42,636 nucleotides of DNA from assembly GCA_903852755.1 (NCBI GenBank), contig CAINRS010000069.1, forward strand, positions 1-42,636, written 5' to 3'. The DNA comes from an uncultured Actinomycetes bacterium. GTDB lineage: Bacteria > Actinomycetota > Acidimicrobiia > Acidimicrobiales > Microtrichaceae. A program made the position numbers and the translations under genes. This document shows positions 25,801-40,650 of this stretch, in pieces (the stretch's first letter is position 1; each line of letters starts with the position of its first letter). The notes beneath the pieces were generated by a model. That model was given only the letters and a program-made list of their open reading frames with translations. It was not told the DNA's origin and made no database searches.

Positions 25801-25810
25801 ACGGTACCGT
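25801..25810. promoter_or_regulatory. Symmetric bidirectional -10 element (menE and PH-domain gene)
   Basis: ACGGTACCGT is a perfect palindrome that reads TACCGT on both strands, sharing the central TA. Rightward, the GTG of the PH-domain gene follows after 8 nt. Leftward, a GTG at 25793 follows after 7 nt and opens a nine-codon frame that overlaps the menE start at 25771. Confidence 0.55.
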
Positions 25811-25818
25811 CGGTGCCC

Positions 25819-26295
25819 GTGGAGGATGCGGTCGCACCGGCGTCGGTCGAACTGCCGGTCGGCCTCCCCGGTCGGCTGCTCGCCGCGGTGGTCCCGGTGG
25901 TCGCGTTCGGGTTGGTCGCCGCGAGCGCACGGCGGGGCGGTCTCGATGCGACCGACGGCGACGTCGTGCCGCCGTGGGTGCTCGCCGTGGCGACCCTGGC
26001 CGGTGCGCTCGTGTTGTCGTGGCGGGCGGCGACCCAGCGGGCGGTGCTCGACGCGGCAGGTCTGCGCTGCCGCAACCTGCTCGTGAGCTTCGAGGCCGAC
26101 TGGGATCTGGTGGAGGTGCTGCGGGTCGAGCGGCGGGGTCCGTTCGTCACGGTCGACCTGGTCCTGGCGAACCTGCGTCGGTCGCACCGCATCGGCGCCG
26201 CCACGCGACTCGCCGGACCCTCGGCTGCGCAGGTGCTCGGCCTCATCCGGCAGGTGCCGGCGGCATCGGCCCGGCTCGGCGATCCGGAGCCGTAG
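25819..26295 (+). CDS. Membrane-anchored PH-domain-like protein
   Basis: A 158-residue protein with two N-terminal TM helices (LPGRLLAAVVPVVAFGLVAAS and PPWVLAVATLAGALVLSW). A compact beta-rich domain follows (AVLDAAGLRCRNLLVSFEADWDLVEVLRVERRGP, then FVTVDLVL) and a closing helix (AAQVLGLIRQVPA), the pattern of bacterial PH-like domains. The role is unknown; membrane-associated scaffolding is only a guess. GTG 25819 is chosen because it lies 8 nt after TACCGT; GTG 25813 is an alternative two codons upstream. The TAG stop overlaps the menA -10 hexamer, so it lies directly upstream of menA and may partly be cotranscribed with it. Confidence 0.75.
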   Translation: MEDAVAPASVELPVGLPGRLLAAVVPVVAFGLVAASARRGGLDATDGDVVPPWVLAVATLAGALVLSWRAATQRAVLDAAGLRCRNLLVSFEADWDLVEVLRVERRGPFVTVDLVLANLRRSHRIGAATRLAGPSAAQVLGLIRQVPAASARLGDPEP

Positions 26296-26298
26296 GCT
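26293..26298 (+). promoter_or_regulatory. -10 element for menA
   Basis: TAGGCT overlaps the stop codon of the PH-domain gene and lies 9 nt before the menA GTG at 26308. No Shine-Dalgarno sequence is present. Confidence 0.5.
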
Positions 26299-26307
26299 CT
26301 CCGGGCC

Positions 26308-27258
26308 GTGAGCGAACCCCCTGCCGTCCGCACGCCCTCGGGTACCCCGGGCCTCCCGACCGGGTGGCGCCGCTGGGTGCTCGGCGCCCGACCCCGGACG
26401 CTGCCCGCGGCGGTGGCCCCCGTGCTCGTCGGCACGGCTGCTGCGGCCGGTCCCGCCTCGTTGGGTGCGGCCCGCGGCCTGTCCTGGTGGGTCGCCCTCT
26501 GCGCCCTCGGGGTGGCCGTCTCGGTCCAGGTCGCCACCAACTACGCCAACGACTACTCGGACGGTCGTCGGGGGACCGACGATCCGTCCACCCGGGTCGG
26601 GCCGCCCCGACTCGTGGGCAACGGGCTGGCGAGTCCGGCCGAGGTCAAGCGTGCGACGATCGTCGCGTTCGCCGTCACCGCCGCGTTCGGTCTCCCGCTC
26701 GTGGTGTTCGTGCAGCCCTGGCTCGTCGTGGTCGGGCTCGCAGCCATGCTGGCGGGGTGGGGCTACACCGGTGGTCCCCGTCCCTACGGCTACGCAGGCC
26801 TCGGTGAGGCCTTCGTCTTCGTGTTCTTCGGGCTGGTCGCCACCACCGGGTCGACCTACGTGCAGGTGCTCGGGATCCCGTGGATCTCCTGGGTCGCGGC
26901 CGTCGCCGTCGGCTGCCTCGCCACGGCGCTGCTCGTGGTGAACAACCTCCGTGACATCCCCGGCGACACGCTCTCGCAGAAGCGCACCCTGGCGGTCCGG
27001 CTCGGTGACCGGCGGACGCGCTGGTTGTACGTGGCGTTGCTCGCGTTCCCGTTCGTGCTCATCCCCGTGGTGGCCGGCGCCGGGGGACGCCCCCTCGCCG
27101 CGCTGGGCCTGGTGGGGGTCGTCCTGGCCCGCCAGCCGGTGGTGGCGGTCCTCGGCGGGGCCTCGGGTGCCGCCCTCGTCCCGGTGCTCGCCGCGACCGG
27201 TCGGGTCCAGCTGGTCACGTGCGTGCTGGTGGCCCTCGGTCTGTTCGTCGGTGGGTGA
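26308..27258 (+). CDS. menA: 1,4-Dihydroxy-2-naphthoate polyprenyltransferase
   Basis: A UbiA-family membrane enzyme that attaches a polyprenyl chain to dihydroxynaphthoate, making demethylmenaquinone. The 316 residues hold about eight or nine TM helices and the two Asp-rich prenyl-diphosphate/Mg motifs, NYANDYSDGRRGTD (about 78-91) and NNLRDIPGD (about 212-220). The PRTLPAAVAPVLVGTA start is characteristic of MenA. It has its own -10 element, 9 nt upstream, inside the end of the PH-domain gene. It converges on menH, with 7 bp between the stop codons. Confidence 0.95.
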   Translation: MSEPPAVRTPSGTPGLPTGWRRWVLGARPRTLPAAVAPVLVGTAAAAGPASLGAARGLSWWVALCALGVAVSVQVATNYANDYSDGRRGTDDPSTRVGPPRLVGNGLASPAEVKRATIVAFAVTAAFGLPLVVFVQPWLVVVGLAAMLAGWGYTGGPRPYGYAGLGEAFVFVFFGLVATTGSTYVQVLGIPWISWVAAVAVGCLATALLVVNNLRDIPGDTLSQKRTLAVRLGDRRTRWLYVALLAFPFVLIPVVAGAGGRPLAALGLVGVVLARQPVVAVLGGASGAALVPVLAATGRVQLVTCVLVALGLFVGG

Positions 27259-27274
27259 CGGCGGCTCAGCCGTC
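27257..27274. terminator. Possible hairpin at the menA/menH convergence
   Basis: GACGGC and GCCGTC pair across a 6-nt loop and span the stop codons of both convergent genes. The lack of a T-run keeps confidence low. Confidence 0.3.
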
Positions 27275-28135
27275 GAGGAAACGGCGCACGGCGGCGAGCG
27301 TCTCGTCGGGGCGCTCGAGGTGGGCGGCGTGACCGGCCCCGGGAATCGTGACCGCCCGGCCACCGGTGTCGGCCGCGAGTCGGGCGGCGTGCGCCACGTA
27401 GTCGGGGTCGTCCCCTCCGGCGAGGGCCAGCAGCGCCGGGGCACCCCCGGAGCGCCCGAGGGCGGCCAGGTCGTCCCACAGGGGACGCATGGACCCGGTC
27501 CCGGCGTTCCGCAGTGACGCCGCCAGGGCGTCGGCGGAGTTGCCCCGGCGCTCCTCGTCGAACCGGGCCCAGTCGGGGAGTCCGGCGAACATCGGGAGTC
27601 CCAGCCACCACTCCACGAACCCGTCCACACCGTCGCGTTCGACCCGTCTGGCCCGTTCCTCATCGGCGTCGCGCCGCTCGGCCCGCCGGGAGGTGTCCGT
27701 GATCCCGGCGGTGGCCCCGATCGTGACCAGCCGGCGGATCCGCCCGGGGTCGGTGACCATCCACGTCAGTGCCACCCGGCCACCCATCGAGTAGCCGAGC
27801 ACGTCGAGGGGCCCGTCGAGGCCCGCCAGCGTGGACCCGAGCAGGTCGACGGTGCGGTCCAGGTCGGCGTCCGCTGCGCGGGTCGATCCGCCGTGGCCCG
27901 GCAGGTCGACGGCGACGACGGTCCTGTCGGCGGCGAGACCGTCGGCAAGCGGTCCCCAGCACCGCCGGGTCTGCGCGAACCCGTGGAGCAGCACGAGCAC
28001 CGGCCGCCCACCGTCGTCGACCGCCACCAGTCGATCCGCAGCGAGCGTGTCGTTGCGGCCTGTGTCGTCGCGACCGGTGTCGTCCCGGCCTGTGTCGTCG
28101 CGGCCGGGGTCGTCCCGGCCTGTGTCGTCGCGCAC
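27266..28135 (-). CDS. menH: 2-Succinyl-6-hydroxy-2,4-cyclohexadiene-1-carboxylate synthase
   Basis: An alpha/beta hydrolase fold that eliminates pyruvate from SEPHCHC in menaquinone synthesis. Motifs are LLHGFAQTRRCW (oxyanion region), VAVDLPGHGGS, the nucleophile elbow GYSMGGRVAL, a GLPMFAGLPDWA lid and the C-terminal histidine in PGAGHAAHLERP. The 289 residues include a non-standard N-terminal tail of about 30 residues made of five DDTGR-type repeats. The GTG at 28135 is supported by TACGGT exactly 6 nt upstream. A GTG at 28027, just before the fold, would leave the repeat untranslated. It is divergent from menD and shares its promoter motif. Confidence 0.88.
   Translation of the reverse strand: MRDDTGRDDPGRDDTGRDDTGRDDTGRNDTLAADRLVAVDDGGRPVLVLLHGFAQTRRCWGPLADGLAADRTVVAVDLPGHGGSTRAADADLDRTVDLLGSTLAGLDGPLDVLGYSMGGRVALTWMVTDPGRIRRLVTIGATAGITDTSRRAERRDADEERARRVERDGVDGFVEWWLGLPMFAGLPDWARFDEERRGNSADALAASLRNAGTGSMRPLWDDLAALGRSGGAPALLALAGGDDPDYVAHAARLAADTGGRAVTIPGAGHAAHLERPDETLAAVRRFLDG
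28055..28129 (-). repeat. 15-bp in-frame tandem repeat at the menH N terminus
   Basis: Five 15-bp units read DDTGR, DDPGR, DDTGR, DDTGR, DDTGR on the minus strand, with a decayed sixth (NDTLA). Copies differ by one to three bases. The acidic, flexible tail would precede the hydrolase fold. Confidence 0.88.
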
Positions 28136-28141
28136 GACGCC

Positions 28142-28151
28142 ACCGTAGGCT
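28142..28151. promoter_or_regulatory. Bidirectional -10 element shared by menH and menD
   Basis: ACCGTAGGCT reads TAGGCT rightward (10 nt to the menD ATG at 28162) and TACGGT leftward (6 nt to the menH GTG at 28135). Both use the same central TA at 28146-28147. The two start codons are only 26 bp apart. Confidence 0.6.
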
Positions 28152-28161
28152 GCGTCCGCCC

Positions 28162-29952
28162 ATGGGAGCTCCAGACGATGCCGCACCGGTGCTGCCGGCC
28201 GAGGGGTCGCTGAACGCCACGTTCTGCGCCACCCTGGTCGACGAGTGGTCGGGTCTCGGCCTCACGAGTGCGTTCGTCTCGCCCGGCTCCCGCTCGACGC
28301 CGCTCGCCCTCGCCCTGGTGGGCGACCCCCGCTGGCAGGTCCAGGTCCTGCTCGACGAGCGGTCCGCCGCGTTCGCCGCAGTCGGGTCCGGAGCGGTCAC
28401 GGGCCGTCCGGCGGTGCTGGTGTGCACGAGTGGCACGGCGGCGGCCGAGTTCCACGCGGCGGTCGTGGAGGCGCACCAGTCGGCGGTGCCGGTGCTCATC
28501 GTGACGGCGGACCGACCACCGGAGCTGCACGGGGTCTGGGCGCCCCAGACGATCGACCAGCGCAACCTCTACGGCGACGCCGTGCGGTGGTACTGCGAGC
28601 CGGGCCCCCCGGATCCGTCGGGCCGGGACACGTGGCGGCACCTGGCCGCGGATGCGGTGTCGAGGTCCCTCGGGGTGGTCCCCGGGCCCGTCCACCTGAA
28701 CCTCGCGTTCCGGGAGCCGCTCGTGGGCGATGTCGGTGACCTGCCGGTGGGCGTCGGTGCTCGATCGCCGCGTCCCGGGTCGGCCGTCGCTCGGCCCGGG
28801 GCACAGTGGGGGCTGACCGACGAGGACCTGGCCCGACTCGCCCCGCTCGTCGCCGGCCGGCGCGGCGTGGTGGTGGCCGGCGCCCGGGCGGCCCTCGACG
28901 CCGACGACCGGGAGGCCCTGCTCGACCTGGCCACCTCGCTCGGCTGGCCGCTGCTGTGCGACTCCCCGTCGGGGTGCCGGGTCCCGCACCCGGCCGTCGT
29001 GTCGACCGCCGACGCCATCCTCCGTGAACCCGGCGTGGCCGGGGCGCTCCGTCCCGAGTTCGTGCTGCGGGTCGGCGGCCTGTTGAGCTCGAAGGTCCTC
29101 ACGGCCTGGCTGCGGGACTCCGGTGCGGTCCAGGTCGGCGTCGACCGCTTCGACCGGGTCCCCGACCCCGACCGTCAGCTCGCCCGGGCGCTCGTCGCCG
29201 ATCCGGCGACCGTCGCGGCGCAGCTCCGGTCCCTCGGGGCCGGGCCCGCACCCGCCGGGTGGACCGCCCGGTGGACGCAGCTCGAGGCGATCGCCCGCAG
29301 GGCCATCGATGCGACGCTCGACGCCCACGGCGAGGTGGTGGAGCCCGCCGTGGCCGCGGACGTCCTGGCGTCGATCCCCGATGGCTCGACCCTCGTGGTC
29401 GCCTCGTCCATGCCGGTGCGCGACCTGGAGTGGTACGCAGCGCCGCGGAGTGGAGTGCAGGTCTGGTCCAACCGGGGCGCGAACGGGATCGACGGGGTGG
29501 TCTCGACGGCGCTCGGGGTGGCCACCTCCCGTCGGCCCACGGTGGCGCTCGTCGGCGACCTGGCGTTCCTCCACGACAGCTCCGCGCTGGTCGGGGCCCG
29601 TGCTCGGGCCCTCGACCTGGTGGTGGTCGTCGTCGACAACGACGGCGGCGGCATCTTCTCGTTCCTCCCCCAACGGGAGTCCGTGCCGTCCGCCACGTTC
29701 GAGCGGGTCTTCGGGACTCCCCACGGCGCCGACCTGGTCGCCCTCGCGGCTGCGCACGGTCTCGACGCCCAACGGGCGACCACCCGCGCCGGAGTGCGGG
29801 CGGCGGTGGCGGGTGCGCTCGCCCGGGGCGGGACCCGGGTGGTGGTGGCCGCGAGCGACCGCGACCACAACGTGGCGGTGCACGAGGAGCTCAACGCAGC
29901 GGTCGCCGCTGCGCTCCGGGCAGCGGGCACGGACCAACCGGCCGGTCCCTGA
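28162..29952 (+). CDS. menD: 2-Succinyl-5-enolpyruvyl-6-hydroxy-3-cyclohexene-1-carboxylate synthase
   Basis: A thiamine-diphosphate enzyme that joins isochorismate and 2-oxoglutarate, the committed menaquinone step. The 596 residues show the family start (NATFCATLVDEWSGLGLTSAFVSPGSRSTPLALAL), DERSAAFAAVG with the ThDP-activating glutamate, CTSGTAAAEFHAAVVEA, TADRPPELHGVWAPQTIDQ, and the C-terminal ThDP/Mg domain with VWSNRGANGIDGVVSTALG and GDLAFLHD...VVVVDNDGGGIFSFLPQ. All domains look intact. The ATG at 28162 lies 10 nt after the -10 hexamer, so the leader is only a few bases. An alpha/beta hydrolase gene follows on the same strand from its own hexamer. Confidence 0.96.
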   Translation: MGAPDDAAPVLPAEGSLNATFCATLVDEWSGLGLTSAFVSPGSRSTPLALALVGDPRWQVQVLLDERSAAFAAVGSGAVTGRPAVLVCTSGTAAAEFHAAVVEAHQSAVPVLIVTADRPPELHGVWAPQTIDQRNLYGDAVRWYCEPGPPDPSGRDTWRHLAADAVSRSLGVVPGPVHLNLAFREPLVGDVGDLPVGVGARSPRPGSAVARPGAQWGLTDEDLARLAPLVAGRRGVVVAGARAALDADDREALLDLATSLGWPLLCDSPSGCRVPHPAVVSTADAILREPGVAGALRPEFVLRVGGLLSSKVLTAWLRDSGAVQVGVDRFDRVPDPDRQLARALVADPATVAAQLRSLGAGPAPAGWTARWTQLEAIARRAIDATLDAHGEVVEPAVAADVLASIPDGSTLVVASSMPVRDLEWYAAPRSGVQVWSNRGANGIDGVVSTALGVATSRRPTVALVGDLAFLHDSSALVGARARALDLVVVVVDNDGGGIFSFLPQRESVPSATFERVFGTPHGADLVALAAAHGLDAQRATTRAGVRAAVAGALARGGTRVVVAASDRDHNVAVHEELNAAVAAALRAAGTDQPAGP

Positions 29953-29985
29953 GTTCCGGCCGGGGCGGTTGGTCGCGCCGACGGC

Positions 29986-29991
29986 TAGCGT
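29986..29991 (+). promoter_or_regulatory. -10 element for the alpha/beta hydrolase downstream of menD
   Basis: TAGCGT lies about 38 nt before the proposed start, giving a leader of roughly 30 nt that carries a GAGAGGG ribosome-binding site at 30015-30021. Confidence 0.45.
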
Positions 29992-30029
29992 GGTCGTCGC
30001 CCGAGGGTCACGACGAGAGGGACGTGCAG

Positions 30030-31055
30030 GTGCAGGACGAGGTCGACGAACACGATCCGGGGGACGACGGCCTCCCGGCCGTCGTGGTCAACGGCGACGA
30101 GCCGCCCCCGGTCCTCCACCCGCTCGATCGCGACGAGCCGCCGTTGCCCCGGGCGTCGGGTGAGGTCGAGCTGCCCGACGGACGGTCCCTCGCCTGGGCC
30201 GAGTACGGGCACCCCGACGGCGATCCGGTCCTCTGGTTCCACGGCACACCCGGCGGCCGCCACCAGGTGCCGCCGGCGGTCGACGAGGTCGCCCTGCGCT
30301 CGGGTTTCCGGGTCATCGCCGTCGAGCGACCCGGGACCGGTGCGTCGAGCGACCACCGCTACGGCCGGGTGGCCGAGTTCGCGCCGGACGTCGAGACGCT
30401 CGTCGACACCCTCGGTGTCGACCGGTTCGCCGTGGTCGGTCTCTCGGGCGGTGGCCCCTACACCCTGGCCGTGGCGAACCACCTCCCCGACCGGGTCGTC
30501 GTCGCAACGCTGCTCGGCGGGTTCGGGCCCGTGCGGGGCGCCGACGCCGTCCTCAGCTACACCCGGCTGTTCCGATTCCTCGCTCCCGGCCTCGAGGTCC
30601 TGCGTGGCCCGCTGGGGTCGGTGTTCTCGTCGCTGGTGAGGGTGGCCGACCCGATCGCGGCGCCTGCGTTCCACCTGTACGCCACGCTGTTCGGGTTCGC
30701 CGACCGCGGGGTGCTCCGCCGTTCGGGCATGCGGGCCGTCTTCCTCCACGACCTCCTGACCGCCGACGACGTCCGGGCGGCGGCGCACGACCTGGCGTTG
30801 TTCACCCGGCACTGGGGCTTCGACCTGTCCACCGTCCGGCCCCCGGTGGTCGTGTGGCAGGGCCTCGCCGACGTGATCGTCCCGCCGAGCCACGGCCACC
30901 ACCAGGCGGCCCGGGTCCGACGCGGCGAACTGCACGTCCGTCCGGGCGAGGGTCACTTCGCAGGGTTCGTCGAGGTCGAGTCGGTCCTCGGACGGGTGCG
31001 GGAGGTCTGGGCCGGCGAGACCGCCGCTCCCGTCGGCTCCACCCGCGACGACTGA
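30030..31055 (+). CDS. Alpha/beta hydrolase
   Basis: A 341-residue protein. After an acidic, Pro-rich N-terminal stretch (about 1-40) comes a hydrolase fold: LWFHGTPGGRHQ (oxyanion hole), VIAVERPGTGASS, the nucleophile elbow GLSGGGPYTLA, a helical cap, WQGLADVIVPPSHG (acid region) and RPGEGHFAGF (histidine). It resembles the general hydrolases or haloperoxidase-like esterases of actinobacteria; the substrate is unknown. GTG 30030 is preferred because GAGAGGG lies 8 nt upstream; GTG 30024 is in frame two codons earlier. It follows menD by about 77 bp, but its fold does not suggest a menaquinone step, since menH is already present. Confidence 0.85.
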   Translation: MQDEVDEHDPGDDGLPAVVVNGDEPPPVLHPLDRDEPPLPRASGEVELPDGRSLAWAEYGHPDGDPVLWFHGTPGGRHQVPPAVDEVALRSGFRVIAVERPGTGASSDHRYGRVAEFAPDVETLVDTLGVDRFAVVGLSGGGPYTLAVANHLPDRVVVATLLGGFGPVRGADAVLSYTRLFRFLAPGLEVLRGPLGSVFSSLVRVADPIAAPAFHLYATLFGFADRGVLRRSGMRAVFLHDLLTADDVRAAAHDLALFTRHWGFDLSTVRPPVVVWQGLADVIVPPSHGHHQAARVRRGELHVRPGEGHFAGFVEVESVLGRVREVWAGETAAPVGSTRDD

Positions 31056-36956: not shown

Positions 36957-36973
36957 AGCGTAGGGCCTACGAT
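36957..36973. promoter_or_regulatory. Back-to-back leaderless -10 elements (TAP peptidase and LLM gene)
   Basis: TACGCT on the minus strand (36962-36957) lies 6 nt from GTG 36950, and TACGAT on the plus strand (36968-36973) lies 6 nt from ATG 36980. They are the two arms of the near-palindrome CGTAGG-G-CCTACG, so the start codons are only 29 bp apart. Confidence 0.6.
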
Positions 36974-40640: not shown

Positions 40641-40650
40641 AGGCTACCGT
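40641..40650. promoter_or_regulatory. Bidirectional -10 element shared by mshD-like and nth
   Basis: AGGCTACCGT reads TACCGT rightward (6 nt to nth GTG 40657) and TAGCCT leftward (9 nt to GTG 40631), sharing the central TA at 40645-40646. The start codons are 25 bp apart. Confidence 0.6.

Follow-up and report, generated by a model that had tools for sequence, protein, structure and literature searches.

A ten-base-pair candidate two-way promoter shared by menH and menD in an uncultured member of the Microtrichaceae

The ten base pairs ACCGTAGGCT at positions 28142–28151 of the window (the whole stretch of DNA analysed, 42,636 nucleotides, contig C69 of a 3.16 Mb genome in 168 contigs) are, with a probability that we put at roughly 0.8, a dedicated bidirectional promoter for the divergent genes menH and menD, and would be a variant without a −35 element of a promoter type that is already known. 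The sequence-only reading had proposed a bidirectional promoter here, and this is supported by the element and its spacings being kept among relatives, by the lack of a −35 signal in 138 promoters of the same genome, by the lack of any other TANNNT in either gene, and by three more gene pairs of the same design.

The element and its geometry

The element is intergenic. On its left lies menH (27266–28135, minus strand), an SHCHC-synthase-like gene running tail to tail with the convergent menA (26308–27258); on its right lies menD (28162–29952, plus strand), the gene for SEPHCHC synthase. menD matches NCBIfam model TIGR00173 at 399.9 bits (cut-off 244.2); the best NCBIfam match of menH, TIGR03695 (menH_SHCHC), scores 161.6 bits (E = 2.3e-47), which is under the model cut-off of 208.55. 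The first codons of menH hold a 15-bp tandem repeat of 5.7 copies (28047–28132), encoding a GRDDT-like repeat. MenD and MenH carry out consecutive steps of menaquinone synthesis, and their joint expression is therefore sensible.

On the plus strand the element contains the −10 hexamer TAGGCT (28146–28151), 10 nt before the menD ATG (28162–28164), and on the minus strand, read from 28147 to 28142, the −10 hexamer TACGGT, 6 nt before the GTG at 28135, the in-frame menH start codon closest to the element. The TA at 28146–28147 is common to both hexamers, and A28142, T28146, A28147 and T28151 spell TANNNT on either strand in the pattern ANNNTANNNT, so the key bases of the two reciprocal −10 elements overlap. 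The opposed hexamers around a shared TA, between start codons separated by a gap of 26 bases, had been described from the letters of the window, and the coordinates, sequence and genes are confirmed.

The accompanying claim, of leaderless-type spacing to both genes, stands for menH, whose 6 nt is the mode of the genome, and falls for menD, whose 10 nt lies in the tail of the distribution. With the usual 7 nt between −10 element and transcription start, the predicted menH start is 28135, the first base of its own GTG, and menH has the geometry of a leaderless gene, with its −10 element about 6 nt before the start codon. The menD spacing, 10 nt in the window as in loci L002–L007, instead predicts a start at the G of 28158 and a 4-nt leader (GCCC) ahead of the ATG, so that menD would not be strictly leaderless and only menH would be. 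A G occupies the predicted menD start position in 7/7 loci L001–L007, L001 being the window itself. The two predicted starts are 23 bp apart.

As menH and menD are each first in their own unit, the promoter of either must be found in the 26-bp gap or inside the other gene. Neither menH nor menD holds any TANNNT on either strand besides the shared pair: from 26200 to 30100, both strands counted, the complete set is the menA hexamer at 26293, the shared pair (28146/28147) and a further hexamer past menD, at 29986. A sigma70 −35/−10 scan of 27200–30100 found nothing.

Promoters of the genome

The background for these spacings is an own-genome sample (G000) of 60 stretches, 799,225 bases including the window, or about a quarter of the genome (2.3% N; G + C 71.9% of the rest). 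In it we called 626 genes with a purpose-made codon model, not an annotation pipeline, which leaves gene starts uncertain in this and the other samples. Counting in-frame candidate starts of these genes, TANNNT lies 6, 7, 8, 9 and 10 nt ahead in 86, 34, 20, 12 and 7 cases; the remaining spacings within 0–30 average 3.5 (range 0–10), with 13 in all under 6. This peak at 6 nt is characteristic of leaderless transcription.

In 138 own-genome promoters with spacings of 6–8 nt, no position of the −35 region carries a signal above 0.04 bit, and all positions from −40 to −5 before the TA are at or below 0.07 bit. Single positions reach 0.16 bit at most in two relatives (64 and 80 promoters), one of which, G009, has a weak signal of 0.16 and 0.11 bit at two positions where a −35 element would be. 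TANNNT itself is about ten-fold depleted in the own-genome sample, with 439 sites observed against 4439 expected from base composition. This depletion, together with the lack of a −35 signal, indicates that TANNNT is close to the whole promoter in the source genome; given also that menH and menD hold no other TANNNT, the ten bases may be the whole promoter of both. The exact ten-base sequence occurs once in the 799,225 sampled bases, both strands counted.

We propose that the housekeeping RNA polymerase would use ACCGTAGGCT, its sigma factor engaging the shared TA in one orientation or the other. In the TAGGCT reading the element would yield a menD message from about 28158; in the TACGGT reading it would yield a menH message from the G of the menH GTG. 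The four bases A28142, T28146, A28147 and T28151 would be essential, and the ten bases would hold the core information for both genes, so that two enzymes of consecutive steps would be supplied from a single site. Since the TA is shared, a polymerase placed for menD uses the bases of menH and both cannot be bound together; the earlier claim that polymerase binds in one direction at a time is thus borne out as steric exclusion, which follows from the geometry. How much this one-at-a-time occupancy would matter depends on how often the promoter fires.

Conservation among relatives

We sought menD in 99 genomes (94 matched; 30 loci given) and in genome contigs (80 loci). Of the 110 loci in total, 11 come without a divergent menH (in 6 of these the sequence stops within 165 bases), and the others include 87 distinct ones; a core-to-core gap of at most 450 bases kept 60 of the 87 and dropped 27 with larger gaps. 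TANNNT stands 5–11 nt from in-frame starts on both sides in 34 of the 60 close loci, 24 of them in the exact shared-TA register and 10 in another register. Such a site is present for menH only in 8 loci, for menD only in 1, and on neither side in 17.

In the window's own family, 28 of 33 genomes gave loci, of which 26, window included, were usable. The symmetric element is present in 23 of the 26, and 21 have its strict form, in which each side has an in-frame start at promoter spacing; in the other two (L008 and L009) the menD start is farther away. The three remaining loci (L023, L024 and L025) have separate elements in other registers. The strict form spans nine genera of the family, with six of the 21 loci from one genus and six from the window's own; many loci come from close relatives, so these counts do not represent independent events. 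Beyond the family the strict form recurs in L030, L043 and L049.

These counts bear on the simplest alternative, that the element is a one-way promoter for one of the genes, the opposite TANNNT being incidental and the other gene being served by a promoter of non-TANNNT type. The 9 close loci with a site on one side only (8 for menH, 1 for menD) are what it would lead one to expect; the persistence of both hexamers with both spacings in 21 of 26 family loci, and the absence of another TANNNT within menH and menD, are not. Together with the base counts given below, this makes a one-way promoter improbable.

The 27 loci with the element were chosen for the A, the TA and the T. Agreement on the six bases that TANNNT leaves free averages 0.91 over these loci, compared with 0.47 and 0.50 in the two flanks, and exactly ACCGTAGGCT is found in 16 of the 27. 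Conservation of this kind could also come from coding sequence, if MenH had a longer N-terminus starting at the GTG of 28186 and overlapping menD: in the window no stop interrupts this frame up to 28186, and in several relatives it likewise stays open beyond the promoter. We regard this as extremely improbable, as the frame in L003, L007 and L009 meets a stop inside the element or shortly after it (18–27 nt from the menH start), and as the MenH tails of relatives differ in length and sequence while the ten bases stay constant.

A control in 14 genomes sets the element against the one-way promoters of menA and ubiE. There TANNNT is kept and the free triplet drifts, to a pairwise identity of 0.535, compared with 0.95 for the menD and 0.86 for the menH triplet in the same genomes; the menD and menH figures are flattered, in favour of the two-way reading, by the omission of two genomes in which no such element turned up, G021 and G012 (G009, with its menD start farther away, was retained). 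Conservation of the free triplets beyond the needs of a bare −10 element could also be expected if the ten bases served chiefly as an operator, bound by a regulator of the menaquinone genes. Both menA and ubiE likewise have CCGTAGGCT in front of them, and 3 of its 4 occurrences in the sample precede men genes; moreover, in the excerpted account of the csoR-cueA divergon, a CsoR box lies over overlapping −10 elements (PMC5057107). The drift of the menA and ubiE triplets in relatives speaks against an operator, as does CGTAGGCT, which occurs six times in the sample, always in a promoter-like place, and once before a DUF2867/NmrA-like gene. The other shared-TA sites, too, have different triplets that are likewise stable among near relatives, and an operator therefore seems to us quite unlikely as the main role of the element. 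A regulon motif of the men genes, tested through menA and ubiE, was set aside on account of the same drift.

Five further loci (L052, L059, L084, L088 and L090) have separate back-to-back −10 elements for menH and menD at an offset of 33–34. One of them, L084, additionally retains ACCGTAGGCT and is perhaps an intermediate.

Chance and the symmetric A

The symmetric A, which turns a TANNNT into a two-way site, is not enriched at divergent leaderless promoters of the own-genome sample (15 of 86, with A making up 13.9% of bases). It occurs there at base frequency, which is what a one-way promoter with an incidental partner would show, and the symmetry of any single site could be chance. At same-direction leaderless promoters, however, this A hardly ever occurs (1 of 66), which a one-way promoter does not account for; the scarcity looks as if selection had acted against backward firing. 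An A 12 bases before the TA is common at divergent leaderless promoters (26 of 86, versus 11 of 66 at same-direction ones).

Symmetric sites cluster in divergent intervals, which hold 17 of the 23 sites; they are found at 16 of 95 divergent pairs versus 2 of 374 same-direction pairs. Part of this is due to TANNNT density, which is 6.07 per kb in divergent intervals versus 2.57 in same-direction ones; per TANNNT site, symmetric sites number 17 of 135 in divergent and 2 of 127 in same-direction intervals. One possibility is that chance creates symmetric sites between divergent genes, where they are then retained, and that they are removed where backward firing would serve no purpose. What chance does not give, to judge from the aligned loci, is the preservation of ten nearly identical bases while the DNA on either side is replaced.

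Other shared-TA sites

Of the 95 divergent neighbour pairs in the own-genome sample, 22 have TANNNT at 6–10 nt for both genes and 42 for one gene. Four of the 22, menH/menD included, are in the shared-TA register and none is in any other overlapping register. Across the three genome samples, five promoter pairs were found at offsets from −10 to +15, and all five have the shared-TA register. The 400-kb sample of G034 contributes one further pair and that of G009 none; G009 nevertheless keeps two of the other own-genome pairs (L177 and L236) and, in L008, the menH/menD element, there with no menD start close by.

One of the three further own-genome pairs is within the window: AGGCTACCGT, at 40641–40650, lies between genes for a GNAT acetyltransferase-like protein (minus strand) and an HhH-GPD DNA-repair-like protein (plus strand), and the register recurs in 15 of 30 loci, own genome included (5 have no divergent partner). 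The register of the uracil-DNA-glycosylase-like/histidine-phosphatase-like pair is found in 13 of 28 loci, own genome included (3 without divergent partner), and that of the iron-dependent-repressor-like/Lhr-like helicase pair in 5 of 30, all of the own genus (18 without divergent partner). In L209 the latter pair has the other economical overlap, at offset 4, with predicted starts 18 bp apart.

The window has a third symmetric site, the perfect palindrome ACGGTACCGT (25801–25810), between menE (minus strand) and a plus-strand gene without Pfam match. Here menE has a predicted 23-nt leader, and the plus-strand gene starts at GTG 25819 with a spacing of 8; a symmetric site recurs in L032, L034 and L039 and is absent from L041. 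At 36957–36973, TACGCT (minus) and TACGAT (plus) stand 5 bp apart, both with spacing 6, between genes for a TAP-like hydrolase and a luciferase-like monooxygenase, so that all four divergent pairs called in the window have closely coupled −10 elements, three of them symmetric sites.

As a quarter of the genome already yields at least four pairs built in this way, the menH/menD element is not a one-off. Its family-wide preservation and the similar elements elsewhere in the genome suggest a real, recurrent promoter form and not a coincidence.

Discussion

Warman et al. 2021 is reportedly the founding paper on bidirectional promoters. Bidirectional promoters, TANNNT leaderless promoters, divergent leaderless neighbours and a divergon of the csoR-cueA type are all published.

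According to excerpts of the primary reports, bidirectional promoters with a shared −10 region are known in E. coli and Salmonella (PMC12825309, PMC10268837); they are defined by divergent starts 7–25 bp apart (PMC10268837), with spacings of 18, 10 and 23 bp and 18 the commonest (Warman et al. 2026, PMC12825309). The menH/menD element resembles them in that one −10 region would be read on both strands for genes of linked function, and its predicted start distance of 23 bp matches one of these spacings. In contrast, five E. coli promoters in those excerpts have −35 hexamers on both sides, whereas no −35 signal was detected for menH/menD and menH is predicted to be leaderless; and 18 bp is commonest in E. 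coli, whereas only the 23-bp register was found in our three genome samples.

The excerpts on the csoR-cueA divergon of Bradyrhizobium liaoningense come closer: its −10 elements overlap, and mapping placed the transcription start of csoR on the initial base of its start codon (PMC5057107), so that, as predicted for menH, one side of a divergent pair is leaderless. With this precedent, and with the other pairs of the design in the genome, the arrangement is less striking as the sole promoter of a leaderless gene pair than the sequence-only reading had it. The divergon differs from menH/menD in the 42-nt leader of cueA, in the repressor box over the promoter and in being a single case.

For Actinobacteria, extracts of two studies place the first T of TANNNT about 12 bp upstream of the start codon in leaderless genes (Zheng et al. 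2011, PMC3160421; Cortes et al. 2013, PMC3898074), and these extracts do not describe a single TA common to both −10 elements. In M. tuberculosis, Cortes et al. found no conserved −35 element, and report closely juxtaposed divergent promoters as common, with prpD/Rv1129c divergent and leaderless on both messages; for other mycobacteria, an extract reports a signal in the −35 region (PMC4128351). Two-way transcription from one TATA element is known from Pyrococcus (extract of PMC6640164), and the portions available of PMC10937400 and PMC12340547 hold nothing relevant to two-way promoters. In the literature searched on leaderless and bidirectional promoters, taken without Warman et al. 2021, we found no family-conserved, genome-recurrent shared-TA element lacking a −35.

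Firing in both directions is thus likely; mutual exclusion may serve as a means of regulation, and here the precedents point different ways. In the excerpts on the five E. coli promoters, basal activity is too low for competition, which appears once one direction is activated (PMC12825309); in those on csoR-cueA, the authors attribute the effect at the overlapping −10 elements to probable polymerase competition (PMC5057107).

A wider proposal, which we put forward tentatively and at somewhat under even odds, is that minimal two-way promoters form a class found throughout the lineage. In these GC-rich, TA-poor genomes, the 10-bp pattern ANNNTANNNT, with its four essential bases, would be the complete promoter of divergent pairs of which at least one side is leaderless. 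Each free triplet, being part of one −10 element and the upstream edge of the other, would be kept constant by selection for a given proportion between the two messages, and one-way promoters would be selected to lack the symmetric A, thereby avoiding backward firing.

If the two-way reading of menH/menD is true, two genes of one pathway would be under ten base pairs, each of which could be tested in both directions at once, and bidirectional promoters, on which most work has been done in E. coli and Salmonella, would extend to transcription that is leaderless and without a −35 element. The orthologous promoters would then form a natural series in which to study how polymerase picks its orientation and whether selection maintains the proportion of one message to the other.
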